Assembly: GCA_947167565.1 (NCBI GenBank)
Contig: CAMVIN010000007.1
Span: 1 to 40,858, forward strand
DNA length: 40,858 nt
Direction of reading: 5' to 3'
Origin: an uncultured Clostridia bacterium
Lineage (GTDB): Bacteria; Bacillota; Clostridia; Lachnospirales; Lachnospiraceae
Below are positions 1,881-28,223 of the stretch, piece by piece (within the stretch, counting starts at the first letter, position 1; every line of letters begins with the position of its first letter). Both the position numbers and the translations under genes were made by a program. The notes under the pieces are model-generated. The model had not been told where the DNA came from, did no database searches, and worked only from the letters and a program-made list of their open reading frames with translations.

Positions 1881-3512
1881 TCATGAACCATTTCCATAAT
1901 CTTTTTCTCCCTCTGGTTTTGCCGGCGGTGTTCCGCTCGGTTTTCCATTATGATGACCTTTTCCATCCGTATGATTTCTATTACCTCGATTTCCACTACC
2001 GGACTTGTCACCGGAATTACCACTCTGACTCCCTGGTCTGCTCCCTGGTTTCCCACTTGGACGCCCGTTGCCCGCCTTTCTTTCACCAGTTTTTTTGTCA
2101 GATGAGTTGCTGTCTGTTTTGCTTCCTGTTTTACTGTCCGCCTTTCCACTGGAGCCGGACTTTGCCTCTACCGCCTTGCCACTGGATTTTGTTCCGGCTT
2201 TATATTTTTTGCCATTGACATAGAGTGTGTGACCGTTTAAATTGATAGATTTTTTTGCACAAGTAAGACTCGTTATATAAGAATCTGCCGTCAGCGTCCA
2301 TGTAGAATTTCCCTTTAACTCCACATACACACTTCCCGCCTTGCCATCGGAGTTCACAGCCCCCTTGAACTTGGAGCTGTCTGCGAGATACAAATTCAGT
2401 GTCGATACATCATCCACCACGATATCTCCCTTGATGGTCTGCTTTGACGCCTTTACCGTCACGTTCCCGCCATTGGAGCCCTCGCTTCCCCAGCCGGCCG
2501 CTGCCGCTCTGAGAAAAATCCCTTTTGAGTCTTTGTTCGTTATTTGCGCATTTTTTAACGTAATCGTAGCAACTGTATTATTGACAAAAAAGATGTCTCC
2601 GTTTTTGTTGATCAGTGTCCCACCTTCCATTCCAAAAGTGGCTGCCCCCTGTGCCGCATCTCCCGACATAGACTGATAAATCATAACCGCCTGATAATAC
2701 TTTGACTTGTCACTGTTCTTTTTATTGTTATCCGCAGTAAGAGTCACATCCTTTAGTTGAACTGAATTTTTCCCCTCCACGACAACGCCTTGAGATGCCG
2801 TAGAAGTCAGTGTTGCATTGCTGACAGTAATATCCGCTGTCGAATAGATAACCGGTGAGCCTGTTCCGTCTGTCGTATAACTCCCCTTTGTGACCTTTAC
2901 CGTTCCACCGCCCCTGTCTGAACGAATTGCCGCAGAAGAATTCCCCTTGGTATAAATGACAAGATTATCCGCATTCATTGTTCCACCCCCTGTCGTCATC
3001 AGTCCGCCGGAACAATTATTACTCGTATTGATTTGTGAATTCGAGATATTCACTGTGGTCTTTTTTCCATAGGAAAATACCGCATTCGCATGAGCGCCGT
3101 CGCTATCAACTTGAATATTGGTCAAGTTAAGCACAGCACCATTCGTCGCAAAAACTGCAGAGTTCTCTCCATAAAAGTCCGCATCATCTCCCTCCGAATT
3201 GCCGGTCTTCACAACCTTGACATCCTCGTAACTTTCTGTTTTCCCATCAACTTCAATCGCATGGCCACCGTCCGTGCTATTTTTTATTGTCTCCCCCGAA
3301 ACTGCCTGTCCGGACGCTGTCTTACCAAATGCGGAGTCTCCCGAAGAAACCGCAGAATCGGATACCGATCCCCTTTCTAATTCTTGGTTTTCTGAATTTT
3401 TCTCCTGAGACACTACACTACCGTTCTTTCCGTCGGAACTTCCCGCTGAGCCACAAGCCGATAGTCCCACGGCAGCTCCAAGCACAATTGTCAACCATAA
3501 TTTCTTTTTCAT
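1881..3512 (-). CDS. Beta-helix surface lipoprotein with basic Gly/Ser-rich tail
   Basis: A 543-aa exported protein. The start at 3512 follows GGAGG by a proper distance; the track's extra 51 N-terminal residues are upstream leader. A type II signal peptide ends in LSAC with lipidated Cys20. The middle, about residues 90-440, has repeating short beta-strand turns rich in N, G, T and V (for example NISNSQINTSNN, LTNIQVDSDG), the look of a right-handed parallel beta-helix. The last ~95 residues are low-complexity, basic, G/S/K/P-rich, probably disordered and wall-spanning or wall-binding. Beta-helix proteins of this kind act as adhesins or polysaccharide-binding or -cleaving proteins; no catalytic residues could be assigned. 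The gene stands alone: the ATPase gene upstream has its own promoter, and the adenylation gene starts 120 nt downstream. Confidence 0.75.
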   Translation of the reverse strand: MKKKLWLTIVLGAAVGLSACGSAGSSDGKNGSVVSQEKNSENQELERGSVSDSAVSSGDSAFGKTASGQAVSGETIKNSTDGGHAIEVDGKTESYEDVKVVKTGNSEGDDADFYGENSAVFATNGAVLNLTNIQVDSDGAHANAVFSYGKKTTVNISNSQINTSNNCSGGLMTTGGGTMNADNLVIYTKGNSSAAIRSDRGGGTVKVTKGSYTTDGTGSPVIYSTADITVSNATLTSTASQGVVVEGKNSVQLKDVTLTADNNKKNSDKSKYYQAVMIYQSMSGDAAQGAATFGMEGGTLINKNGDIFFVNNTVATITLKNAQITNKDSKGIFLRAAAAGWGSEGSNGGNVTVKASKQTIKGDIVVDDVSTLNLYLADSSKFKGAVNSDGKAGSVYVELKGNSTWTLTADSYITSLTCAKKSINLNGHTLYVNGKKYKAGTKSSGKAVEAKSGSSGKADSKTGSKTDSNSSDKKTGERKAGNGRPSGKPGSRPGSQSGNSGDKSGSGNRGNRNHTDGKGHHNGKPSGTPPAKPEGEKDYGNGS

Positions 3513-3581
3513 AGTTACCTCCATAAATAAGTTCAGCCTTTCCCATTCAATACTAAAATTTATTAACTGTTGATTACACTT

Positions 3582-3610
3582 ATTATAGAGCAGCAACCTT
3601 AAAACAGACT
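3582..3610 (-). promoter_or_regulatory. Possible promoter of the beta-helix lipoprotein gene
   Basis: A perfect TATAAT -10 (3582-3587, minus strand) lies 70 bases upstream of the lipoprotein start. No good -35 is seen at 16-18 bp spacing, which suggests activator dependence. The proximal ~50-bp direct repeat copy begins at 3601, so it covers the -35 region. The repeat may therefore be regulatory as well as a recombination scar. Confidence 0.4.
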
Positions 3611-3652
3611 GAAAAAAGTTAACTACATCAGGCAATGTTCCAAAATTCTTTA
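3601..3652. repeat. Flanking direct repeat, copy A (3' side of the ATPase gene)
   Basis: This 52-bp stretch matches 5195-5243 in the same orientation with a few mismatches and small indels. The longest perfect blocks are aaaaaagttaactacatcag (20 bp) and ttccaaaattcttta (15 bp). Copy A contains the stop codon of the ATPase gene (3650-3652), and its far side covers the -35 region of the beta-helix lipoprotein gene. Together with copy B it brackets exactly one gene plus its control region. Confidence 0.85.
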
Positions 3653-4957
3653 ATCTCTTAAACATCCAATCGGAACTATTTTAACTCCATTGTCAGTGGT
3701 ATATCCCATTGATGCATTTGCGCAAATTACAATTAATGCCGATGGTTCTCTATATACAGCTTTAGGATGTGCAGGGTTTTTAGTTGCAGCCTCATTATGT
3801 TTTATTATTAAATCTCTAAACTTTAGAAGTGATTGCTCTGCTTCAGGGATTTTATTTGCTCCTGTTTTTATTTCAATTAGAGCATATCTACCATCTTCCA
3901 TTTGATATATGGCATCTGCTTCCAGTCCTGTATCATCTGTATAATGAAGTATTCTTGCATTGTGAGCCTCTGCAAACACGAGCAAATCACGTAGTACTAA
4001 ATTTTCAAAAATATGTCCAAACAAATCTAAATCATTTATAAAATATTCTGGTCCTAGTCCTAATGCAGCTATTCCAATCGAAGGATCTACAAATATATGC
4101 TTCTTTCCACTTCTTATTGCTGTCTTAGATCTTATTTGAGGAGTCCATGCATCAATATCTTTTATTACAAATAGTTCCTCAAGTTTTTCAACATAATTAT
4201 CCAATGTAACATCCGTAACATTTTGTGTTGCTTTCACATCTGCAAATATCTTTGTCTTTTTTGCTTTTGTTGCCATATTTCGTGCATATGACCATAACAA
4301 CGTTCTTGCCCATTCCGGATTTCTTTTCACTTTATCTATTGCACTTATATCCGTCTGATATATCTGCCTGTAGTAGTCTTTTGCAATTTCTAGTTTTGCT
4401 GATTTTCTTTTCAATGCCAAGCATCTTGGCCATCCACCTCTGCAAACTATAAAGAACAATTCTTCTAATGTAAGATCAGACATACTACCATCAAAATTAT
4501 ATGTTTCATCTTCAACAATCCTTGATAATGAAATCAGCCCATTAGATTCACCTGTTTCCCATAATGTCATCGGAAACATAGTTACTTCAGTAATTCTTCC
4601 TGTACCCGTGTGTGGTGTATTGATTTTTTTACTTGATGAGCCAGTTAAATAATATTCTCCTACGTTTTCAGGATTGTCATCACAATCCTTTCTTATTGTC
4701 CCCCATATTTTAGTTGCATCTTGCCATTCATCAAACAATATTGGTTTTTTATTTTTTAAAAAAAGTTTAGGCGATGTTTCGGCAACAGCTAAATATCCAT
4801 CTCTCTTTTCTTCATCCTGAAATTCAATAATTGTATTGCAGCGTTCTTTAGCAGTTCTAGTTTTACCGCACCCCTTTGGTCCGATAATATTAATTGCATT
4901 AAACGCCTCTTTTCGCTTATTTAATTCTTCATCTACAATTCTTCTAATATATTTCAT
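3650..4957 (-). CDS. AAA-type ATPase with C-terminal DUF4143 (PD-(D/E)XK-like) domain
   Basis: A 435-aa cytoplasmic protein of the widespread but uncharacterised AAA_14/DUF4143 family. Walker A is GPKGCGKT (about residues 26-33), Walker B is ILFDEWQD (about 73-80), and a sensor-like YLTGSSSKK follows. The C-terminal part, about 200-435, fits DUF4143 and carries a nuclease-like D...ALIEIKTG (ExK) signature. The start at 4957 follows AGGTG; the track's longer N-terminus overlaps the promoter. The gene is clearly more AT-rich than its neighbours. It has its own promoter with three tandem 23-bp repeats immediately upstream, and is bracketed by ~50-bp direct repeats whose proximal copy holds its stop codon. 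This pattern suggests recent acquisition as a single-gene unit. The family has been discussed in connection with mobile or selfish genes and stress, but no function is established. Confidence 0.85.
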   Translation of the reverse strand: MKYIRRIVDEELNKRKEAFNAINIIGPKGCGKTRTAKERCNTIIEFQDEEKRDGYLAVAETSPKLFLKNKKPILFDEWQDATKIWGTIRKDCDDNPENVGEYYLTGSSSKKINTPHTGTGRITEVTMFPMTLWETGESNGLISLSRIVEDETYNFDGSMSDLTLEELFFIVCRGGWPRCLALKRKSAKLEIAKDYYRQIYQTDISAIDKVKRNPEWARTLLWSYARNMATKAKKTKIFADVKATQNVTDVTLDNYVEKLEELFVIKDIDAWTPQIRSKTAIRSGKKHIFVDPSIGIAALGLGPEYFINDLDLFGHIFENLVLRDLLVFAEAHNARILHYTDDTGLEADAIYQMEDGRYALIEIKTGANKIPEAEQSLLKFRDLIIKHNEAATKNPAHPKAVYREPSALIVICANASMGYTTDNGVKIVPIGCLRD

Positions 4958-4982
4958 ATTATTGTTCACCTCGCATAGATAC

Positions 4983-5011
4983 ATTATACATCCATATGTA
5001 ATCACCAGCAA
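4983..5011 (-). promoter_or_regulatory. Promoter of the ATPase/DUF4143 gene
   Basis: On the minus strand TTGCTG (5006-5011) and a perfect TATAAT (4983-4988) are separated by 17 bp, a near-consensus sigma-A promoter. The start codon at 4957 is only about 25 bases from the -10, so the 5' leader is very short. The 23-bp tandem repeats end 5 bp upstream of the -35. Confidence 0.75.
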
Positions 5012-5015
5012 GACT

Positions 5016-5083
5016 ATTTTGTGTTTTTCGGCAAATTTATTTTGTGTTTTTCGGCAAATTTATTTTGTGTTTTTCGATATCTT
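5016..5083. repeat. Three tandem 23-bp iteron-like repeats upstream of the ATPase promoter
   Basis: Units at 5016-5038 and 5039-5061 are identical. The third, 5062-5083, matches for the first 15 bases (attttgtgtttttcg) and then diverges. The core is ttttgtgtttttcggcaaat. The array abuts the -35 box of the ATPase gene, and 23 bp is roughly two helical turns, so repeated protein binding on one DNA face is plausible (autoregulation or activator sites). A recombination or slippage origin is the alternative. Confidence 0.85.
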
Positions 5084-5194
5084 CATTTATTCAGCAAACT
5101 CATCAGCAATTATATTGTTCAAAAATATTATGAGCCTATTTTCTAAATGCTATACTCCTTGTTAATATACATTAGTATCGTGTACCTTTAAGCT
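5084..5194. other. AT-rich spacer between iterons and repeat copy B, no gene assigned
   Basis: Very AT-rich DNA. On the minus strand there is an AAGGAG-like ribosome site near 5155 and a 20-codon open stretch ending ...NNIIADEFAE before a stop, followed by an eight-codon ATG frame that runs into the first iteron. Neither has a convincing start signal, so neither is called as a gene. It may be the remains of a gene or leader carried with the ATPase unit. Confidence 0.4.
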
Positions 5195-5243
5195 AAAACA
5201 GGCTAAAAAAGTTAACTACATCAGCCGTTTCCAAAATTCTTTA
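5195..5243. repeat. Flanking direct repeat, copy B (5' side of the ATPase unit)
   Basis: This is the 49-bp partner of 3601-3652 in the same orientation; it differs by several substitutions and three net deleted bases. It separates the ATPase unit from the end of the ABC operon. Between it and the lipoprotein stop at 5312 lies a 17-mer, aaaccggccaatctcat (about 5272-5288), that also forms one arm of the terminator at 40437-40472. No matching second arm is seen here. Confidence 0.85.
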
Positions 5244-5311: not shown

Positions 5312-6373
5312 CTACTCCGACTCTTCCTCTAACACCAGATACTCATATCCATACTTTTTCTCCAGTGTCCAACGGCATTTTCCGACCGTTCCCTCTTTTT
5401 CCTTTCCTACCACAAAATCGGAAACAAATGCCGCAGCCGATGTCTCATCCCCACAAATCTCTGCCACAAGATTTGTCATCGTCTCTTTTTCATTTTGGGT
5501 AAAAAGTGGGGTAGAGGCCGTATCGACTCTGCTGTTTGGATTCTTTTCCATTTTTATCTCAAGTTCAAGCGGCTTTCCATCCTTATAGTAAAAATCAATA
5601 CACTTGTTGTATGGGTTGTCACACTCATTCCAACTGCTGATGAAATTCAACCGGTCCATGTAGCCTCCGGCATTGATGGCTCCCACATAAAAGCCGTCTT
5701 TTACTCTCGTCCGGAAAAATTCCTCATATTTTCCCGGCACACGGAGCAGTGCCTTGGGAATTTGAATCTGCAATCCGTATTCATCAGCTCCCGCTATTAT
5801 AATAATTTCAACGCCCTGACGGACAAGGCTCAGATACTCTGTCTCTTGTTTGCGTTTCTCTTCATATTCAGCAGCAAATGTCTGAAAAGGAGCAACAAGG
5901 TTCGCAGCGCCTAAACGTTCTAATTTATTTAGAACCTCTTCTATTTTCCCTGTATAAATGATATCATCAAACATATAATAGCCGGATATATTTCCGAACT
6001 TTGAATCTTCCTCATCCATTTCATCCGAAGAATAAGCATCTTCAGAACTCAAAGAAAAAGCCCGTTCCTGCACAGAATTCCAATCCCTCCAATCCGGAAC
6101 AAGTAATTCTTTCGTCTTCTCATCACGTTCAAAAATGTTATCCCCATAAACATCCATTTCAATTAACATATCCTGCAGCCGGTTAAGGAACTCACCGCTC
6201 TCCTTTCTCGTCACAATAGGAACCGGCTCCTTTTCCTCATCCCACGTTACTTCATACACACTGTCAACAAATGGTTTCTTTTCTGCCTTCGCCTGTTTTA
6301 GGACAGCATCCTCTCCGCATCCCGTCAACAAAAATCCAACGCATAGCACCAAAATAATTCCTTTTTTGTTCAT
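5312..6373 (-). CDS. Lipoprotein of the YtrA-type ABC operon (paralogue 1)
   Basis: A 353-aa predicted lipoprotein. The start at 6373 is set by GGAGG seven bases upstream; the track's longer frame overlaps the permease gene. The signal peptide ends LLTGC with Cys19. It is a paralogue of the protein encoded at 8912-10003. Both share FVDSxY near the N-terminus, VKDGF followed by (V/I)GA(I/L)N and GGY, the block KDGKPLEL, and a C-terminal GTVGK motif. The last gene of the operon, it starts 17 nt after its partner permease. Pairing of each permease with one lipoprotein implies an extracytoplasmic subunit of the transporter. No known domain was recognised, and the ligand is unknown. Confidence 0.75.
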   Translation of the reverse strand: MNKKGIILVLCVGFLLTGCGEDAVLKQAKAEKKPFVDSVYEVTWDEEKEPVPIVTRKESGEFLNRLQDMLIEMDVYGDNIFERDEKTKELLVPDWRDWNSVQERAFSLSSEDAYSSDEMDEEDSKFGNISGYYMFDDIIYTGKIEEVLNKLERLGAANLVAPFQTFAAEYEEKRKQETEYLSLVRQGVEIIIIAGADEYGLQIQIPKALLRVPGKYEEFFRTRVKDGFYVGAINAGGYMDRLNFISSWNECDNPYNKCIDFYYKDGKPLELEIKMEKNPNSRVDTASTPLFTQNEKETMTNLVAEICGDETSAAAFVSDFVVGKEKEGTVGKCRWTLEKKYGYEYLVLEEESE

Positions 6374-6390
6374 AACAACCTCCATTCTGC

Positions 6391-7584
6391 CTAAACTCTC
6401 TTCCAGATTTTTGTCAAATGGAAAAGCAAATAAAAACTTCCGGATATCAGTAGCCACAAAACGAGGCATCTGGTCCACGACACATGAGAAGTGGCATTAG
6501 ATATAAGATAATCATTTAAAAAATAAGTTGCAAACGCTCCTAAAGAAGTGCTGATGCCAATGTTGATACCTACGCGGCCGATTGCTGTCGGAATCCGGCT
6601 GTTAATCCGTGCCAGATCCTGTTTTTGATTAATCCACCACGCAAGCCAGGTACATCCAACCAATATAGCAGCCGCAAGCCCAAAGGAAATCCATATATTC
6701 CCATACGACAAAACTGCAGTCCGATTCGGTAGATATTCTGCGCCTTTTGGACTATAATCGCTATTTGAAAAATATCCCATCACCGAAAAATATCCGTACC
6801 GATATCCCAGCGTCCGCCCCTCAAACATTCCGAAATAACGCTTCAAGCAGTTTAAAATCACATCAGCCTTTCCCGATTGGAGAAACGGACTCATGGACAC
6901 AGAAATATGCCAACCCACAGTCACAAGACCGAGAGGCCAAAACAGAGCTCCAGCCCCCACAATCGCGCTAAAAATTGAATTTCTTATCAGGTAGGCAACC
7001 AACATATAGACCGAGTACATTGCCAGCAGCGTAAGCCAGAACAAAAGCAGTGAACGAATGGTATGAAAAAGAGTGTCAGCACCCGCAAACTGATGAAAAA
7101 ACGGGGATAGCACATTGTTTTTGATAATAATTGGCTCAAAATAAAATTTTTGAACCAGAACGCCAACTCCAATCACAAGACACCATACTGTAATCATACT
7201 GTAACTTACAAGCACCTTTGCAAAAAATTTCTCTTTCTGAGTAAACGGAAGGGAATTCAAGTATTCTCTTTGATTCCTCTTCTGCAAATCCGCAAACTGC
7301 ACCATAGCCATGACAGCAAACGCCACCACACACAGACAGACTGTATTTCGAAGCACTTCAATCAGAATATATCCAAAGATACTCCCACTAACAAGGTTAC
7401 CGGCTGCACTGTAACTGTTAACGCCTACTCCTCTCACAGGAGACAAGAGGTAATGCAAAGAACCGAAAACCTCTCCCACAACCACCAGCGATGCAATCAT
7501 CCCCAGCACAAAGAAAATCAGCATATGTTTCATTTCATATCGAAACAAGACACGAGATCTGTTCGCCCTTTTTTTCTTATTCAT
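6391..7584 (-). CDS. ABC-2-like permease 1 of the YtrA-type operon
   Basis: A 397-aa integral membrane protein with a first hydrophobic segment around residues 18-40, several further membrane helices, and a final pair near the C-terminus. The start at 7584 follows AAGGTGG and overlaps the end of the ATPase gene by eight bases, which implies translational coupling. It is clearly paralogous to the permease at 10014-11237: both begin with a basic stretch then V-L-F-x-Y-E-M, both contain a NSLPFTQ or SSLPFTQ loop, an LLLFWLTL(L/I)AMY helix, and a cytoplasmic QDL(A/T)RINxxIPT segment. These loops resemble ABC-2 membrane subunits. It probably forms a transporter with the single ATPase of the operon and the second permease or a homodimer. 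The transported compound is not evident. Confidence 0.8.
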   Translation of the reverse strand: MNKKKRANRSRVLFRYEMKHMLIFFVLGMIASLVVVGEVFGSLHYLLSPVRGVGVNSYSAAGNLVSGSIFGYILIEVLRNTVCLCVVAFAVMAMVQFADLQKRNQREYLNSLPFTQKEKFFAKVLVSYSMITVWCLVIGVGVLVQKFYFEPIIIKNNVLSPFFHQFAGADTLFHTIRSLLLFWLTLLAMYSVYMLVAYLIRNSIFSAIVGAGALFWPLGLVTVGWHISVSMSPFLQSGKADVILNCLKRYFGMFEGRTLGYRYGYFSVMGYFSNSDYSPKGAEYLPNRTAVLSYGNIWISFGLAAAILVGCTWLAWWINQKQDLARINSRIPTAIGRVGINIGISTSLGAFATYFLNDYLISNATSHVSWTRCLVLWLLISGSFYLLFHLTKIWKRV

Positions 7585-8911: not shown

Positions 8912-10003
8912 CTACTCCTGCCCCCGCTCGATTACCAGCATAGTATGCTCCGAATCCACTTTTTTCAGTTTCCATTTTGCCTTGCCAACTGTACCAGACG
9001 TTCCTGTGTCGAGCGTAAATGAATTCACAAACTCTGCCGCAGCCGACTCATCACCGGCAAACTCATTTACCAGACAAATCACAGTCTCTCTCTCTTTTTC
9101 AGCGAACACCTCACTGCTCTTCTCCACACTTGGAAAATTATTATTTTTTCCCAATTCGATATCCAGTTCCAGCGGTTTTCCATCTTTGAAATATAAATCC
9201 ACATTTTTCTGATACAAATTGCACGGTTTATACCAGTCACTCAACAAATTCAACCTTTCCAGATATCCACCTACATTCAGTGCACCAATACAGAACCCGT
9301 CTTTTACCTTTGCCCGAATAAATTCACTATACTTTGTCGGTATCGCAACCTGAACAGCAGGCACCCTGGCAGAAACCGTATATCGCGAACTTATCATACG
9401 TCCATTCATTCCCTCTGCCTGACAGTCAAGCTGAAACTGGATTCCCTGAGAAGCAACAATAACAAAATTAGAATAAGTAGAAGGATCTTCCCCCTCATAC
9501 GTTTCAATGGTCTGCTCCATTTCTTTAACCATTCCGTCCATTGCCTCTGACAGCCCGGAGACTCCCAATTGTTCTAACTTTTCACAGTATTCTCTCATCT
9601 TTTTCTCATCCGATAATATATACGAGCCTATACCGAAGGATTTCACCCGTTCAGCCTTCTTTTTGATGGATTCCGCACTTGTCCAATCCACCTCATCTTT
9701 TCCCAGATTATCCTCTGTCTCCTCATAATCATCGGAATAGTCATCTCCAACATACTTTCCTGCCAGAATCTCTTTAATTTTCTGAATCAGAGCAGCCTTC
9801 TCCTCCCACACCGTCACATCACCGAGAATTCTATTTTTTTCTTTTTCTTCTTCGACGGAATGATTCACCGTGTAAATACTATCTACAAATTGAATATGCT
9901 CAGATTCAATCTGCCGCTCCACGGCATCGCTTCCACAGCCGGTCAGTATAGTTCCCGCCACAGCAAAAATGGCTGCTATCAACATTTTTTTTGTTCTCAT
10001 CAT
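8912..10003 (-). CDS. Lipoprotein of the YtrA-type ABC operon (paralogue 2)
   Basis: A 363-aa predicted lipoprotein with signal peptide and LTGC lipobox (Cys at about 23). Two adjacent ATG codons (10003 and 10000) follow AGGAGG; the first has the better spacing. After an acidic region it shares with the 5312-6373 protein the FVDSIY segment, VKDGF-x-(V/I)GA(I/L)N-x-GGY, FKDGKPLEL, and the C-terminal GTVGK block. The gene begins 10 nt after the stop of permease 2 and 25 nt before the repressor gene, so it is in the same transcript. It is probably the external accessory subunit of its adjacent permease. The family was not recognised. Confidence 0.75.
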   Translation of the reverse strand: MMRTKKMLIAAIFAVAGTILTGCGSDAVERQIESEHIQFVDSIYTVNHSVEEEKEKNRILGDVTVWEEKAALIQKIKEILAGKYVGDDYSDDYEETEDNLGKDEVDWTSAESIKKKAERVKSFGIGSYILSDEKKMREYCEKLEQLGVSGLSEAMDGMVKEMEQTIETYEGEDPSTYSNFVIVASQGIQFQLDCQAEGMNGRMISSRYTVSARVPAVQVAIPTKYSEFIRAKVKDGFCIGALNVGGYLERLNLLSDWYKPCNLYQKNVDLYFKDGKPLELDIELGKNNNFPSVEKSSEVFAEKERETVICLVNEFAGDESAAAEFVNSFTLDTGTSGTVGKAKWKLKKVDSEHTMLVIERGQE

Positions 10004-20316: not shown

Positions 20317-23300
20317 TCATTTTACCCTTACTGTAACCTTCTTTGTGTATCCATTTCTCGCATACACATAAATCTGACATATTCCGGAAGCAACAGCCTT
20401 GATTGTTCCATTTTTTGTGACTGTTGCCACATTAGTGTCTGTGCTCTCAAAGCGAAGTTTTCTGGCATGTGCATTGGAAAGATGTTTCTTTGTCTTATCC
20501 TTCAATACAACTTTCGCAGAAATCCGAAATTTTCTTCCGGCTGAAATCCGCAGGTTCTTTCTCGAAAGTTTGATTTGCTTCGGATTCGAGTATTTTGTAT
20601 TATTCTTCCCTACGATATGCGCCTCAATGGTCTTTCCTACTCTGACCTTCTTGCCGTTCTCGTTCTTGTAAGCACTCACATAAACCTTATAATTCTTCTT
20701 GAGGTTCAGCTTCTTTTTATTGATTTTTGTTATTTTAGCACTCGTCTTAGTATTTGACGAAATTGTCTTTGCTGCCTTCCCGTATTTCTTTCCGCAGTAC
20801 TGGACAAATACCTTATAACCATCCGCCCCGGATACCCGCCCCCAGGAAACTTTTATTTTCTTTCCGGTCTGGCTGACTTTCAATCTGCTGTTCATCGAAA
20901 GAGAATTTACTTTTTTCCGAACAGTCGTATCCTCTCCGGCTGGATTCTCTTCCGTCGTCTTCTCTCCGGCTGTTTTGTCTGAACTCTCTTTTTTATCTTC
21001 CTCCCTGGTGTCCGGAACATTCTCTTCCTCTTCCTTCTCGCGCTCAGCCTTAGCATTTTCCGAGTTCAACAGTTCGGCGCTGTCTTTTGTGTCAAAAATA
21101 ACAGAAATTGCATCCGAGGCTGTTTCGACAACTTTCTGCAAATTAGCTGCCACGGGTTCCGTCACAGAATCAACTTGCGCTTTTGCCTTCGCTGCGGCAT
21201 CATTGATTGTCTCTGTCGCCTTCTCCCGCTGCTCATCTGTCAGACTCTTCATCGCTTCAATATCTTCCTGAACGGCTTCTACCGCATCGTCAATTGATCT
21301 TTTCATCCTCCCCTTTAAATTGGCAAAGTTCTCATTTGCTGCCTCGGATAAAATATCACGAATCCGTTCTTTTTTCTCACCCTGAGCCTCTACTCTGCCA
21401 AGCGCCTCATCGGATACTTCCGTCTCACCGTTAATAGCCATATCCACTTCTGCAAAAATGGCCTTAATTACCGCTTTTGCCTCATCTCTCTTATCTTCTG
21501 ACAAATATTCAAACTCGTCGATTTCCGCTATTGCGTCCTCAACCAGCTCCGTGATTTCCTCCAACATGGCAATCTTCTCATTTTTTAAATTACTTACCTT
21601 AGCCTCTGTCACGACATCCTCAATCGCTTCTACTGCTTTATCCCGCAGCCCGTCTTTTGCTGTGATTGCCGCCACCAAGGTCGCCGCATAAACCCTGTCT
21701 TTGCCCTCTTTTTGCGCCTCTGTCACAGCACTCTTAAAGCCATCTTTTTCTTCATCGCTGAGACCTTCAAGTCCGTCAATCGTCTCATCTGCCGATGCCT
21801 TTGCCGCGGCAAGAAAAGCAACTGCCTGCTCTTTCGCCGCCGCCAGTTTTTCTTCATTTTTGACTTTTGCAGCGTCAATAACTCCCTGAATGTAACTCTT
21901 CGCCATAGCCAGTGGCCCATTCTCTTCCAAAATGGACTCCGCACTCGTCATGCCGTTAATCACTTTAATAACTTTTTCTTTATATTTCTCGATATCCTCT
22001 TCAAAACCGCTGCGTTCGGCACTGATATTTTTTAAATTATCTTCCCCAATTTCTTCCACTGCTGCCGTGGCTGCCGCCTCAATCTCTGCAATCGCAGCCT
22101 CTCTCACATCCGCCAGATTTGTCACATTCTTCTCCTTCGCCTGTGACACAACCTCCGCAATCGCTTCTAAGGCCTCGTTCTTCAAACCATCTGACGCAGT
22201 AATCGAATCAATGGTTGTCGCCCTGTTTACCTTCACAATTCCGGTTTCTGACCTGACATCAATCTCATTCGTGTAATACTCTTTTTCTTCTGTACTGAGA
22301 TTCAACAATGTCTCAATGGTCTGCTCTGCCAGAGTCTGCGCTTTCACAATGTCTGCATTTGCCGCCTTCTTTGCATTCTCCAGATTCAATGTATTTTTTG
22401 CTTTTGCAGCAGCAACATATCCTGAAATTTTGTCAAGGGCTTCGTTCATAGCCACAACAGCATCCCCCGGCGATACTTCTGACGCAAACTCTTTTTTCTC
22501 AGCCGCAATTTTCTCAAGTGCCTCCAACAATTCCGTCGTGCTGAGATTTGACAGATTATTAACCTCTGTCTGCGCTTTTTGAATCGCCCTGTTTATCGCC
22601 TCTGATGCCGCTGTTCTGGCAATATCCTGAATACTTTTCACTGTTTCTGTCGTATCTGCAATGTCATCTGCCTTTGTCACATCTGTCTCATCTGCAAATG
22701 TCCGCTTCGCCGCTATTCCCATGCTGTCAATATCATATATGTGTACAGCCTTTTCCTCTTCTGTATACATATCCATGAGTGCAACGGCAGCATTTGCATC
22801 AGCCGCCGCCTGTTCAATCGCCGCTGCCGCCTTTGCTTTGGCATTTGACAGATTGACCTCTTTCGCCGCATTCAACAACGTCGCCATCTTTTCAAGCGCC
22901 TCTGTCTTCTTCTCCGTCACATCTTCCACCGTAGTACTCTGCGCAATCCGTTCTTTCGCATCATCTTTCACTGCTGCAATATTGGATTTATAAGAACTCC
23001 TCTCATCGTCGGAGAGCTGCTTTAACGTATTTAGTGTTACGGAATATGTCGTAAGTGTTCTCTCGATTTCCCGGATTGCTTCATCCCTGTCCTCCTGCAG
23101 ATTGCCGACAGAAATCCGCACTATCTCCCCGGCATTAAAGTCCTCGGTGGAAGCATATCGCACACTCACTGTGCCGGCTTCCAATCCGGTAATTTCGGTC
23201 TTTCCCTCACCAACTGCCGTCCAGTTGACGCCATTGTCCGTCGAATATTCCATCTCATCTGTCACACCGAGAACAACACCATCTGCTGCAGTTTCACTTG

Positions 23301-26300
23301 TCGCCTTTTGGGCAGTCAGACCTGTCGGCGCCTCCTGACTCCCTTTCACACCGATAGTAACTGTCACAGAAGAACCGACTTTTACATTCATTGTCTCTTT
23401 GATGCGAACCAGCACCTCTCCTGCCTTGAGTCCGGTAATTGCCGTCTCTCCTTCACCTATCTCTCTCCATCTTGCACCTCCATTGACAGAGTACTCCATG
23501 GTGCTGTCCACCCCATCAATAGAACCATTTGAAGACATGTTACTTGTCGCCTTATGCGCAATCAGCCCCGTCGGCCCATCCGGGCCATCCGCCTGAACAA
23601 TCGTAAAGTTTACGGTAGGTATGTTTACCGCAGTAATCGCATAATTGGTATCCTTCGTGTTGTCGGAAACTACTGTCATGGCATAGTTTCCAACATCTGT
23701 CCCCTCTGCGCGGGTAACAGTAATCCCTGTCAGACGATCGCCATTTACCAGCGAGCCACTTGTGATTTCATAATTCAGTTCGGGATCTGCCTCTCCGTAC
23801 TTCTTGGTTCCCGCCACAGGCGCAACACTGATTTCACATTTTGTAATATCAGCACCGATATCATCCTTCTCCGGATAAGCAAAGGTATAGTTTTCTTTTC
23901 TTACACCCTCTTTCGGTATCACTGCGGCATGAGAAGAGTCTACGGTAACCGGAATCGTCTCCGCAACATCCTTGCCGGCAAACTCACCCGTCAGTCCCGA
24001 TATCGCGAAGGTATCTTCTCCCACACCAATCGCTGTACCGCTGACTGCCGCCTGTGTCGTGCCATCATACACTTTATTTTCTGTTTTGTAACTTACCGTC
24101 AATTCTTTTGGCATAATTCTGGCACTCGCCGTCACTTCATCCGTCTCCGGAAATGTCACGTCATAATTCCGAATTTCTGTTCCCTGCAGTGCCTCCACAC
24201 TTGCCTCTGACTGATCAATCGCAACGGTTTTTGCCACTGCCTCACCATTTTCGTCAAGTTTCACATCCTTGCCTGCCAGAAGAATATTTCCCCCGTCATC
24301 TTTCTCATCCACGAAAGTCCCTTTTACATTCCGTACAACAATCCCTTCATTCACAGTTCCTTTTTCTTCATTCTCCACAATACCGGTGTCAATGTTCCCC
24401 ACCAGTTCGATTTCATCCGAGCCATCATAAACCTTTTCCGCCACGTCATTGTAAGTGACTGCAACCTCCCGTCTGCGGATAGTAGCTGTAAGTACTGCCG
24501 AGGCATCCAGCGTGTCCGGAGCAGTTGAAAACTTGTAGTTATCCAGTTTTGTACCCGCCCCCGCTATAATTACTACGGTATCTTTTGATGCCGTCACACT
24601 CTGCGGTGCAGGATTGCCCTGTGTGTCAAACCGGACATCTTTCCCCTCAAATGTGCCATGAAAACCGTTGACGATAATCTTCTCATCGCCAACCAGACCT
24701 TCCTCAAATGCAACTTCTACCTCTGCCTCGTCAGTTCCGTCATACTGTTTGTCTTTTGCCGCAAGGACAGGGGTAATTGTATACGGAACAATAGTGGCTG
24801 TGATGTTATCCGTTTTATAGGCAATCTCATAGTTGGCACGATTGGTATTTGTCCCGGGAGTCACTACCAGTTTGCCCTCCGGTTCTTCCGGATTTTGCGC
24901 CTCCTGCGTTGTATTCACGCTGACACGCTTCGAAACAGGCTCCCCGCTTTCATTCAGTTTGACATCTTTCGCTGCCAGTGTGGTATCCGTTCCCTCTGTC
25001 TCATCTTGAAACACACCGGACAGATTTCCTATTGTAAAGGTCTCTCCGGCAACACCGGTGACAGCGTCCGAAACGATAACATCCTCAAATTCTGCCGTCT
25101 CCTCACCATCATAAGTCTTATCTTTGGCGGCCGATGACAAATCAATCGTAATTGCTTTTTTCAAAATCGTATATTCATGGCAGGCTGTCGCCTCCGTAAA
25201 ATCGGATGACTCCGCCTTGACCAGTTTAATCATGTATCTGCCGGCATCTTTGGGAGTTCCTGCTGTATATTCTTCCGTGCCGGCAGGGAATTCGTCAGTC
25301 ATCTCACAATAGGATACACTGACCTCCCCAGTCGTTCCTTCCAGTGTATAGGCATCCCCCTCCGATAGTTCAACAGGGGAACCGTCATAGGTCTTGCTGT
25401 AGGAAAAATCATCTTTAAAAGAAATCTTTCCCTCGTTTTTCTTTGTGCTCACGGTAAGGATAAATACAAAATCCTCATAATTCTTTGAACTGACAGTCAC
25501 AGGGATGGTTGCTTCTTTCTCTGCACTTGCCCCGTCTTTTAACTGATAGCTGATGATACCGTTTGCATCTACCTGCGGAGCAGACGCAAAAATATCATCG
25601 CCGGCAACTTCCCCTATCTCATAACTTATATTTTTAAAATCTAAATTTTCTTCTTCTCTCGATGTCGCAGTCGAAGTTTCCAAAATATTGATTACTTTAT
25701 CCTGAATATCATATGTTTTAGCAGCATGATCCTGGCTCAACAGTTCGACTGTATCGGACTGCGCCTGCTGCACTGCCTTTTTTATCGTCAGACTACCATC
25801 AAGATAACCAACAATCTTATAATTCTTATTGACAGCAGACAACTGACTAAAATTCTCCGGCACTTCTAACACCTGAATCGCATAAATTCCGACATCTTCA
25901 CCATCTGAATTGCCGACATCCTCTGACTTTGTACGGACGAGTTGTACACCTGTCAGTTTATCGCCGCTACCAAGAGCAGACGGAGCAGTCTGAGCCTCCT
26001 CCTCACTTGTAATTTCTTTTTCAACCACTTTATATTCCAATACCGGATCCGAAGCCCCATAGGTCTTCTGCTTATTTACCGCTGCCAGTTTGACCTCTTT
26101 TGGCGTAATCGTAAACGTACATTTATAATTGTATACACTGCCACCATACAATTCTTCCGACTGTGTCACCTGCGCATATACATAGTATGTACCCACTTTC
26201 GTAAATGACGGTGCTCTATCCAGTGTATATTGCAGATTTTTTATATCCTCTGTGGCAACATCATCTGTCGTAGGAGAATATTTCACCGTTGCTCCTTCTG

Positions 26301-28176
26301 ACAGTGTTACCTTAGGACTCTGCGGTTCACCGGAGTAAGGAACTTCCTCGTTTTGTATGGCAGCAATCTCCCAGTTGCCATACAGGGTACCGGTATAATT
26401 TCTCTTCCCTCTAATGGTTATCTTATGAAGTCCTAATTCTGCCGCTTTCACAGCTCCTGTCAACTGGTAATCTGCCTCATCAATCATGACGCCAAGCCCC
26501 GTATCCAGCAGAGACGGATTCGGATTAATCAAATTCTGAGAATACGGAAAAACGGAATCCTCCAACCCGTTGTAAAGGATTTTTATCTCGCCGGCATATT
26601 TTTGCAAATCCCTCGCCACAACTGTCAGTGTCCCCTCAACGGGAGTAATCGCGTAATTCGGATTACTGTCCTCATTTACCGATATGCGAATGGTATATTT
26701 TCCCACATTCTGTTCCTTCATCTGCTCTTCTGTCATCGGCACAGAATCAGCATCCAGACACTCATAGGTCACACCGCGGATATTTCCGGAACTAATCACG
26801 CTGTCACCGGCTCCATCTGTCACTTCAATGCCATATGTACTCGCGTCAAATTCCAGTCCATACTCTTTGGAAATATCTTTTGCCTTTACTGTCACCGGTC
26901 GCTTTGTCACCGTAAGCGTTGCTGTACCGCTCACAGTAATTTTGTAATTTTTGTTTGCCTTATTAAAATCATTCGCCTGAATATCCGATACTGAAATTTC
27001 ATATTCTTTTACTGCTGCCGATTTATCTGCGCCGTCACAGGTAACTTTCCAGCCACTCAGCGTATCTTCTCCGCAAAGAGGAGTTGCGTCCGACACTTTA
27101 TAGCCAAACGAACTCAAATCTTTTGTATCACCATATACTTTTGTCTCATCCTTCGGCGACACCGTAATCGCTTTTCGGTTAATGGTAATCGTTCCCAGAT
27201 GTACCTCATCTGCCATATAGGTCGGATCTGTCACAACACGATAGTATACCTCATGCTCTCCGACATCCGTATATTCCGGCACTGTTGTATTCTCTTTGGA
27301 AATGTTGTCAGCCAGTTCCTCCTCAGATTCTCCAAAATAAACTTTTGCCCCATCCGGAAGTTCCTCAAATGTCATGGCATGACCGTTCCCATCATATGTC
27401 CCCTCATAATTGTGTGCCTTATAATTGAGTTTTCTCGGAACAATTCGCCAATAACGAATAATAACCCCCGTGTAATTCGGAGATGTTGTCCTGATTTCAA
27501 TTTTGTACAACTGACTTTTGTCTGTAATTTCACCATTTATCTCGTCTTCACTCGTTATTTCTGCATAATAGTCACCATTCTCTTCGTCAAGAGTGATGTC
27601 ACCATGTTTTACGGACACTTTGGGCGTTATACCGGAACCGGTATATACATAATTTGAGACAACCATCGTCTTACCGTCCAGTGTGAGCTCACTCTCTGAA
27701 TTTCCATCAAGTGTCACGGAAATATCGGAACCGTCCGTCTCTGTTGAATAATTGCCAAGACTCTTTCTTGCAATCTGAACTTCAGCGATTTCTACCGGCT
27801 CAACATCCTCGTATCCGGAAGAAGTGCCCGTCACCTTATAATAGACATGATAGGTACCCGCATCTGTCCCGGTAGGAATCGATGTACTCCACATTGCGCT
27901 GTTTTCCAGTTCTGACGCATCCGGTTCACTCGTCCACGCCGCATAGCGCATCGTTCCGCTTGCAACGCTTCCCGATGAAATAAGTTTTTGCTCCGAACCG
28001 GTATAGACCAGACCACTTTTCGCCGTTGGCACCTTTGTCACTGCGCTTGTCGCCGCCTCTGCCGTCGGCGCACTCCAAAACGGAACAACTGAAAACATCA
28101 TGATAATCGCCAAGAACCATGCAGTCAGTCGTACCGTCACTCCTCTCCCTCTCCATATATGTATCATTTTTTCCAA
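20317..28176 (-). CDS. Giant secreted MBG/YDG-repeat surface protein with helical repeats and Big_2-like end
   Basis: About 2,619 aa. AAGGAGG is eight bases from an in-frame TTG (28176) but 17 from the next ATG, so TTG is the likely start; the track's ATG at 28197 lacks a good site. A signal peptide ends near SAPTAEAA. Residues ~50-1535 are MBG/YDG-type beta modules, with KVYGD, KEYGL, KTYDG, KQYDG and KVYDG repeating at module starts and ANKNYKI at ends. Residues ~1540-1700 hold two similar modules (PTGLxAxKAT, MEYS). Residues ~1700-2370 are Ala-rich helical repeats like DUF1542/FIVAR. After a charged linker come a Fn3-like and a Big_2-like domain. No LPXTG or terminal membrane helix is seen. 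It is probably a surface adhesin or fibre, attached in an unknown way. Confidence 0.85.
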   Translation of the reverse strand: MEKMIHIWRGRGVTVRLTAWFLAIIMMFSVVPFWSAPTAEAATSAVTKVPTAKSGLVYTGSEQKLISSGSVASGTMRYAAWTSEPDASELENSAMWSTSIPTGTDAGTYHVYYKVTGTSSGYEDVEPVEIAEVQIARKSLGNYSTETDGSDISVTLDGNSESELTLDGKTMVVSNYVYTGSGITPKVSVKHGDITLDEENGDYYAEITSEDEINGEITDKSQLYKIEIRTTSPNYTGVIIRYWRIVPRKLNYKAHNYEGTYDGNGHAMTFEELPDGAKVYFGESEEELADNISKENTTVPEYTDVGEHEVYYRVVTDPTYMADEVHLGTITINRKAITVSPKDETKVYGDTKDLSSFGYKVSDATPLCGEDTLSGWKVTCDGADKSAAVKEYEISVSDIQANDFNKANKNYKITVSGTATLTVTKRPVTVKAKDISKEYGLEFDASTYGIEVTDGAGDSVISSGNIRGVTYECLDADSVPMTEEQMKEQNVGKYTIRISVNEDSNPNYAITPVEGTLTVVARDLQKYAGEIKILYNGLEDSVFPYSQNLINPNPSLLDTGLGVMIDEADYQLTGAVKAAELGLHKITIRGKRNYTGTLYGNWEIAAIQNEEVPYSGEPQSPKVTLSEGATVKYSPTTDDVATEDIKNLQYTLDRAPSFTKVGTYYVYAQVTQSEELYGGSVYNYKCTFTITPKEVKLAAVNKQKTYGASDPVLEYKVVEKEITSEEEAQTAPSALGSGDKLTGVQLVRTKSEDVGNSDGEDVGIYAIQVLEVPENFSQLSAVNKNYKIVGYLDGSLTIKKAVQQAQSDTVELLSQDHAAKTYDIQDKVINILETSTATSREEENLDFKNISYEIGEVAGDDIFASAPQVDANGIISYQLKDGASAEKEATIPVTVSSKNYEDFVFILTVSTKKNEGKISFKDDFSYSKTYDGSPVELSEGDAYTLEGTTGEVSVSYCEMTDEFPAGTEEYTAGTPKDAGRYMIKLVKAESSDFTEATACHEYTILKKAITIDLSSAAKDKTYDGEETAEFEDVIVSDAVTGVAGETFTIGNLSGVFQDETEGTDTTLAAKDVKLNESGEPVSKRVSVNTTQEAQNPEEPEGKLVVTPGTNTNRANYEIAYKTDNITATIVPYTITPVLAAKDKQYDGTDEAEVEVAFEEGLVGDEKIIVNGFHGTFEGKDVRFDTQGNPAPQSVTASKDTVVIIAGAGTKLDNYKFSTAPDTLDASAVLTATIRRREVAVTYNDVAEKVYDGSDEIELVGNIDTGIVENEEKGTVNEGIVVRNVKGTFVDEKDDGGNILLAGKDVKLDENGEAVAKTVAIDQSEASVEALQGTEIRNYDVTFPETDEVTASARIMPKELTVSYKTENKVYDGTTQAAVSGTAIGVGEDTFAISGLTGEFAGKDVAETIPVTVDSSHAAVIPKEGVRKENYTFAYPEKDDIGADITKCEISVAPVAGTKKYGEADPELNYEITSGSLVNGDRLTGITVTRAEGTDVGNYAMTVVSDNTKDTNYAITAVNIPTVNFTIVQADGPDGPTGLIAHKATSNMSSNGSIDGVDSTMEYSVNGGARWREIGEGETAITGLKAGEVLVRIKETMNVKVGSSVTVTIGVKGSQEAPTGLTAQKATSETAADGVVLGVTDEMEYSTDNGVNWTAVGEGKTEITGLEAGTVSVRYASTEDFNAGEIVRISVGNLQEDRDEAIREIERTLTTYSVTLNTLKQLSDDERSSYKSNIAAVKDDAKERIAQSTTVEDVTEKKTEALEKMATLLNAAKEVNLSNAKAKAAAAIEQAAADANAAVALMDMYTEEEKAVHIYDIDSMGIAAKRTFADETDVTKADDIADTTETVKSIQDIARTAASEAINRAIQKAQTEVNNLSNLSTTELLEALEKIAAEKKEFASEVSPGDAVVAMNEALDKISGYVAAAKAKNTLNLENAKKAANADIVKAQTLAEQTIETLLNLSTEEKEYYTNEIDVRSETGIVKVNRATTIDSITASDGLKNEALEAIAEVVSQAKEKNVTNLADVREAAIAEIEAAATAAVEEIGEDNLKNISAERSGFEEDIEKYKEKVIKVINGMTSAESILEENGPLAMAKSYIQGVIDAAKVKNEEKLAAAKEQAVAFLAAAKASADETIDGLEGLSDEEKDGFKSAVTEAQKEGKDRVYAATLVAAITAKDGLRDKAVEAIEDVVTEAKVSNLKNEKIAMLEEITELVEDAIAEIDEFEYLSEDKRDEAKAVIKAIFAEVDMAINGETEVSDEALGRVEAQGEKKERIRDILSEAANENFANLKGRMKRSIDDAVEAVQEDIEAMKSLTDEQREKATETINDAAAKAKAQVDSVTEPVAANLQKVVETASDAISVIFDTKDSAELLNSENAKAEREKEEEENVPDTREEDKKESSDKTAGEKTTEENPAGEDTTVRKKVNSLSMNSRLKVSQTGKKIKVSWGRVSGADGYKVFVQYCGKKYGKAAKTISSNTKTSAKITKINKKKLNLKKNYKVYVSAYKNENGKKVRVGKTIEAHIVGKNNTKYSNPKQIKLSRKNLRISAGRKFRISAKVVLKDKTKKHLSNAHARKLRFESTDTNVATVTKNGTIKAVASGICQIYVYARNGYTKKVTVRVK

Positions 28177-28223
28177 ACTCTTTTCCTCCTTAACCATATC
28201 GCTTTGCTTACTACTCTCTTTTT

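Follow-up and report, generated by a model that had tools for sequence, protein, structure and literature searches.

The described systems closest to the locus reported here are the PADLOC defence candidate PDC-S01, the archaeal cluster arCOG03166 and, with respect to promoter architecture, the iteron-controlled plasmid Rep initiators, whose iterons measure about 17-22 base pairs (bp). PDC-S01, a defence candidate by genome context, is a single gene in which an ATPase is fused to a PD-(D/E)XK member; it is frequently transferred and ranks fourth in frequency among the candidate defence types of prokaryotes, and experimental validation is pending for most PDC candidates (PMC12988326). In a survey of rumen genomes it outnumbered every other individual locus (PMC13356809), and no mechanism for it was found in the literature searched. 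The cluster arCOG03166, located in archaeal dark matter islands, combines an AAA+ ATPase, a helix-turn-helix (HTH) and a RecB nuclease, and the report on these islands annotates it as a likely defence or plasmid gene (PMC4158269). Here, a gene of the PDC-S01 type was analysed in a stretch of 40,858 nucleotides (the window) from an uncultured Clostridia bacterium of the Lachnospiraceae (GenBank assembly GCA_947167565.1, contig CAMVIN010000007.1, positions 1 to 40,858). An original prediction had claimed a mobile or selfish single-gene unit encoding a nuclease-like ATPase, held between two direct repeats of about 50 bp that would be its arms or a duplicated target. The mobile unit is supported by the motifs of the protein, its structural model, the borders of the unit and the protein tree; its true borders proved to be an array of iterons at one end and the gene's stop codon at the other, and the 50-bp repeats are private to this locus. 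Taken as a whole, we think it probable, with considerable room for doubt, that this is a mobile PDC-S01 single-gene unit whose own product binds the iterons and so controls its own promoter, and which probably acts in defence.

Iteron array and AAA_14-DUF4143 protein

The iteron array (5015..5076, minus strand) lies inside the region bracketed by the direct repeats and had been missed by the original prediction, yet it proved to be the conserved feature. It consists of three identical repeats with a CGAAAAACACAAAAT core and a period of 23 bp, their CGAAA motifs starting at 5076, 5053 and 5030, and it is directly adjoined by the sigma-70-type promoter of the gene (4983..5011, minus strand), in which a -35 box TTGCTG (5011-5006) and a -10 box TATAAT (4988-4983) are separated by 17 bp. 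Comparison with 55 relatives from public genomes (46-90% identity) showed arrays of two to eight copies, with a CGAAA-to-CGAAA spacing of exactly 23 bp in 113 of 122 intervals. A period test that is independent of the repeat sequence reached a z of at least 10 upstream of 44 of 54 relatives compared to 8 of 231 neighbouring genes, and the locus-averaged period score reached 34.7 for a period of 23 bp and 22.5 for one of 46 bp, whereas shuffled sequences did not exceed 5.2. A sharp 23-bp peak is also seen in remoter clade members whose repeats are unrelated in sequence, Bacteroides and Collinsella plasmids among them. In 38 of 43 relatives, the last CGAAA is followed after 19-20 bp by the -35 hexamer, an offset that excludes a -35 box in exact iteron register, which would be at 23 bp. 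Such evenly spaced direct repeats in tandem at the promoter of the gene itself are the arrangement of an iteron-controlled, self-regulated gene, and a search of 195 genomes for the two-iteron pattern (up to three mismatches) returned the window only.

The spacing depends on the protein subfamily. A sister clade of DUF4143 genes, with several members in the window's own genome, has its period peak at 32-33 bp (29 loci), which adds about one helical turn to the 23 bp; a third clade gives a hint of a 39-40 bp period (8 loci), and a fourth, of the GPRQVGKTT type, has no arrays (6 loci), so that arrays are not universal in DUF4143. DUF4143 paralogues within one genome carry different arrays. The window's own genome also contains a tandem pair of DUF4143 genes of the 33-bp clade (contig C211, 1-2154; loci L002 and L208), whose A-tract repeat arrays are separate and differ in sequence. 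Upstream of two genes of the GIRRCGKS type (L149 and L151), arrays with a period of about 39-40 bp are built of units with inverted repeats, e.g. TTTTTGCATTACAATGCAAAAA, and are perhaps a dimer-binding version.

Within the clade of the window, the sequence of the iterons changes with that of the protein and the period stays constant. Iteron identity tracks protein identity (Mantel rho 0.68, permuted maximum 0.21), from 0.88 at protein identities above 90% down to 0.54 at 35-45%, which is the level of shuffled 23-mers, and the iteron columns carry 1.2-1.3 bits compared to 0.23 bits in the leader. Linked inheritance would by itself produce the correlation between iteron and protein, but it would not account for a period that is conserved or for a leader that contrasts with the iterons. 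The simplest reading of a fixed geometry combined with a co-evolving sequence is a predicted binding site for the gene's own product, and the array is probably bound by this protein, as suggested by the co-divergence, the private association of array and gene, and the winged helix in the structural model.

The protein (435 amino acids, 3650..4957, minus strand) matches Pfam AAA_14 (PF13173, 1.6e-14, 54.5 bits, cut-off 27) followed by DUF4143 (PF13635, 5.5e-30, 104.7 bits, cut-off 28.1), both above the curated cut-offs, in agreement with the family originally proposed. Several PADLOC PDC-S01 models match it as well, the best being PDLC04790 (5e-52). No match was obtained for it in PHROGs or NCBIfam, a viral_contigs search with the family profile confirmed no relative, and the PDB contains no significant sequence relative. 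Its Walker A (GPKGCGKT), Walker B (LFDE), TGS sensor, winged HTH and PD-(D/E)XK-like domain (E319, D349, E363, K365) could all be recognised, with the Walker A/B and PD-(D/E)XK residues intact. Across 38 aligned sequences, G27, P28, K29, G32, K33, D77, E78, E319, D349 and E363 are invariant and K365 nearly so; the Walker A motif GPK.CGK (positions 27-33) is invariant but for one, and the Walker B DE and the TGS are invariant. An AlphaFold2 model computed from the 38-sequence set has a mean predicted local distance difference test (pLDDT) score of 91, and its secondary structure fits the domain order ATPase, winged helix (~215-290) and PD-(D/E)XK fold (~311-392). The top Foldseek matches were the archaeal ATPases 2fna (E 1e-6) and 2qen (E 2e-5) over about 370 columns, followed by Orc1/Cdc6 on origin DNA, MalT and Card1, with DnaA lower in the list. 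The TM-scores of the 2fna and 2qen matches are low (0.37-0.50, 13-14% identity), so the fold matches support a fold class and not a function.

Borders and horizontal movement of the unit

Where relatives occupy unrelated sites, their DNA homology extends from the array, about 115-160 bp upstream of the start codon, to the stop codon (+0 to +14), and borders like these were found at the right end in 24 of 34 pairs and at the left end in 27 of 34. Homology of the relatives to the window itself ends about 115-130 bp upstream of the DUF4143 start, and the ~80-bp spacer beyond the array (5077..5158) had no counterpart at other loci. The conserved unit in the window therefore comprises array, promoter and open reading frame (ORF) and ends with the stop codon (3650..5076, minus strand). 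The clearest case is Collinsella aerofaciens, in which a chromosome-sized replicon and plasmid pCaero1 have a single block in common, 1391 bp at 89.5% identity, which begins with the first iteron and ends 14 bp after the stop codon, and nothing else; on pCaero1, the backbone common to sister plasmids resumes at the next base after the block. Similarly, the units of loci L078 and L107 are 97% identical and the DNA to the left of their arrays is unrelated.

The protein tree points in the same direction: it places Treponema inside Lachnospiraceae (99/97) and groups a Thermoguttaceae row with Bacillota (100/100). Both signs of horizontal transfer are thus present, a gene tree in conflict with taxonomy and a common unit in unrelated contexts, and homology from array to stop codon at unrelated sites together with a gene crossing phyla indicates a discrete, horizontally moving single-gene unit. 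Its distribution is sparse in the window's genus, where orthologues with at least 64% identity occur in 3 of 38 other genomes, and a genome usually carries one copy of the window type. Transfer does not account for every pair of loci: L067 and L068, considered as mutual empty sites, were rejected since the unit lies beside the same FucO-like gene in both, suggesting vertical inheritance there. The sister Collinsella plasmids carry a different DUF4143 unit at the pCaero1 site, so that replacement by recombination is possible there.

The unit lacks the defined ends of a classical transposon or insertion sequence, which would have inverted-repeat ends and a short target-site duplication. No terminal inverted repeats were found in the locus, and neither a consensus target nor a short target duplication was found after the stop codons of the units. 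Contig JAUNMH010000013.1 (L069 1-6400; L123 4906-5757 and 7960-7998) carries a full unit, an internally deleted unit, along which the identity to the full copy drops in steps from 100% to 85%, and a pair of solo arrays of two iterons each, which adjoin unrelated genes. In four related Lachnospiraceae, the unit lies downstream of gdhA (L122 6329-11303, L089 6269-11304, L090 6309-11305 and L087), and at three of these loci it is followed by different Wadjet-type operons, with a JetA-like gene first, that begin at most tens of bp past the stop codon of the unit.

Bracketing direct repeats and the site of the unit

The two direct repeats of the original prediction, at 3601-3652 and 5195-5243, are real imperfect copies in the same orientation, with a perfect 20-bp block (3612-3631 = 5205-5224) and a second one ending in CCAAAATTCTTTA. 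With copy B as query, BLAST on the window's own genome found copy A (87% identity over 53 bp, E 6e-10); gapped comparison of the flanks lengthened the pair to 89 columns at 77.5% (E 2e-10), so that copy A now spans 3568..3652 and copy B 5159..5242, both on the plus strand (85 and 84 bp). Copy A, already noted as containing the stop codon of the DUF4143 gene, starts exactly there (TAA, minus strand, 3652-3650) and shares sequence with the region that holds the promoter of the downstream lipoprotein gene (1881..3512, minus strand); copy B lies upstream of the unit. In a control that paired mismatched flanks from 48 other DUF4143 loci, no score in the row or column of the window locus was higher than the A/B self-score.

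The repeats are nonetheless confined to this locus. There is no third copy in the 3.08-Mb draft genome, none in 145 related genomes at E<=1e-3, and none at about 50 orthologous genes, so that neither the expected DUF4143 genes ending in the same repeat nor a wide occurrence as ordinary promoter elements, which had been named as a refuting outcome, was found; a dispersed family or regulon element was rejected for the same lack of a third copy. The sole outside match, 31 bp in L032, is inside a coding sequence and looks like chance. Comparison of self with mismatched flanks over 49 loci also led us to reject bracketing repeats as a general feature of the units. The other strong cases have features of their own: an array duplication in L072, a repeat of 23 bp in L085 and a repeat recurring 1.3 kb downstream in L088. 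At this last locus, two copies of a ~61-bp repeat (~4694-4754 and 6432-6492, 97% identical) bracket the unit and a third, more diverged copy lies ~1.3 kb past the stop codon.

In G035, another species of the genus, a homologue of the lipoprotein gene lies beside sigF with no DUF4143 unit. Its promoter region aligns with the lipoprotein-side part of copy A with a score of 49 (200 shuffles: mean 27.4, maximum 40). Since this part is recognisable at an unoccupied homologue, it looks resident and copy B looks like the duplicate. The match is a partial promoter only, and the flanks compared included no orthologous empty site; the predicted clean empty site with one repeat copy was not found in the related genomes. 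Whole and joined flanks of the other units gave no adjacent flank pair without a unit, the neighbouring gene X was too poorly conserved in the genus to serve as a marker, and the plasmid and phage route ended at related Collinsella plasmids with another DUF4143 unit at the same site. A duplicated target is plausible for this one insertion and did not hold as a general feature of the units.

These observations bear on two other explanations of the repeats. The first, which we regard as unlikely, takes the 50-bp repeats as the ends of the element, by target duplication or as recombination arms, with excision between the copies. Copy A starts exactly at the end of the unit, its lipoprotein-promoter part is recognisable at the G035 homologue, as expected if B is a duplicate, and in L089 a 179-bp direct repeat (gdhA end plus array, 96.6%) flanks a 2-kb insert at the unit border. 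However, the A/B repeats occur on no other unit, brackets of any kind are absent at nearly all of them, about 80 bp separate copy B from the array, and A and B differ by 13-23%. The second, which appears slightly less likely still, is that A and B are remnants of a dispersed repeat resembling a miniature inverted-repeat transposable element (MITE), unrelated to the gene. In copy B, 22 of 24 bases at 5169-5192 match the inverted repeat at the ends of a MITE-like element of 74 bp, but beyond these 24 bp neither copy matches the element better than shuffles, which together with the missing third copy led us to reject full MITE relics. The family itself is a palindromic element with terminal repeats ACATTGGTACCGTGTA and about seven near-identical copies in the window's own genome (L015, L016, L017, L018, L019, L020 and L021; contigs C8, C212, C171, C26 and C86), several of which adjoin or sit inside ORFs of RHS/YD-repeat-like proteins. 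The repeats are thus not supported as the ends of a mobile element, and being private to this locus they fit a local duplication; with moderate confidence, we regard them as having arisen from the lipoprotein promoter region by a duplication tied to the unit's arrival or to some rearrangement afterwards.

Elsewhere in the window, two paralogous genes of unknown family (5312-6478 and 8912-10003), 38% identical and rare in the genus, sit in the minus-strand gene run upstream of the unit, and a 2626-amino-acid protein with MBG, YDG, GA-module and DUF1542 repeats (20317-28197) is probably surface adhesin-like. An Rfam search of the window gave no match.

Proposed function and comparison with described systems

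A further explanation is an autonomous one-gene element, in which the ATPase-nuclease would bind the iterons as the element's end and move array and gene in the manner of an initiator or transposase. With the first iteron and the stop codon as borders, and with no terminal inverted repeats and no recombinase, this would be a new kind of element, and we consider it improbable. The recurrent borders, the 97% identical units in unrelated left contexts, the internally deleted copy and solo arrays of JAUNMH010000013.1, and the resemblance of the fold to Orc1/Cdc6 and DnaA are in its favour, but the right end has neither an iteron nor an inverted repeat, there is no consensus target, short target duplication or empty site, genomes usually hold one copy of this type, and other DUF4143 units at the Collinsella plasmid site allow recombinational replacement. 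Very improbable, and the least so favoured of all, is an array that binds a host regulator as a regulon element with the DUF4143 gene as ordinary cargo: a host activator would also need the fixed distance to the -35 box and two solo arrays lie upstream of other genes in one genome, but across the 195 genomes the pattern occurs only at this gene, the repeat sequence tracks the protein lineage across phyla, the period is set by the protein subfamily and paralogues of one genome carry different arrays.

The favoured explanation, a mobile and self-controlled PDC-S01 gene, would work as follows. An oligomer of the protein would bind the phased iterons through its winged helix and repress or otherwise set its own promoter, and a gene bringing its own promoter and a self-set control would work wherever it landed. 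Foreign DNA or a changed nucleotide state may then release the protein from the promoter, upon which the nuclease-like domain would be activated. Most likely the protein serves to defend the cell against foreign DNA, this domain being the putative effector. The A/B repeats would have been made by local duplication of the lipoprotein promoter region when the unit arrived or afterwards.

Several observations weigh against this explanation. Co-divergence is expected for any linked DNA, the adjacent leader nonetheless not being conserved; the solo two-iteron arrays beside unrelated genes may be targets in trans, in place of pure autoregulation; and a clean empty site was not found. Next to the units of the relatives lie some defence genes (Wadjet JetA twice, a type II restriction enzyme, a TOTE-type primase and SoFic), but most of the immediate neighbours are metabolic or unannotated, so that the defence role draws on the PADLOC candidate label.

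A private, strictly spaced promoter array provides a biochemical handle, as it gives a predicted ligand sequence for each protein and makes regulation, DNA recognition and triggering testable together. It also provides a means of identifying and delimiting true units in genomes, and opens the question of how so small a unit spreads across phyla.

The original prediction had called the element undescribed. This did not hold for the protein family, which is already known as candidate PDC-S01: the window protein matches its models and likewise joins an ATPase and a PD-(D/E)XK domain in one gene. For the arrays, no description was found in the literature searched (chiefly papers available without subscription, with few preprints), and the two PDC-S01 reports give the protein and its prevalence, with no mention found in them of an upstream array, of a spacing by subfamily or of unit borders (PMC12988326, PMC13356809). 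The order ATPase, HTH and nuclease is also that of arCOG03166, and it is by this domain order that the window family is likened to it; this cluster differs in being archaeal, and no repeat array is described in the passages of its report that were consulted (PMC4158269). The best fold matches, 2fna (SSO1545) and 2qen (PABY2304), differ from the window protein in their low TM-scores and 13-14% identity. Iteron-controlled initiators have in common with the locus the tandem direct repeats of constant spacing by the promoter of a gene whose product probably binds them, as well as an AAA+/winged-helix fold similar to Orc1/Cdc6 and DnaA, whereas the gene in the window is chromosomal and single, and its product has a nuclease-like C-terminal domain.
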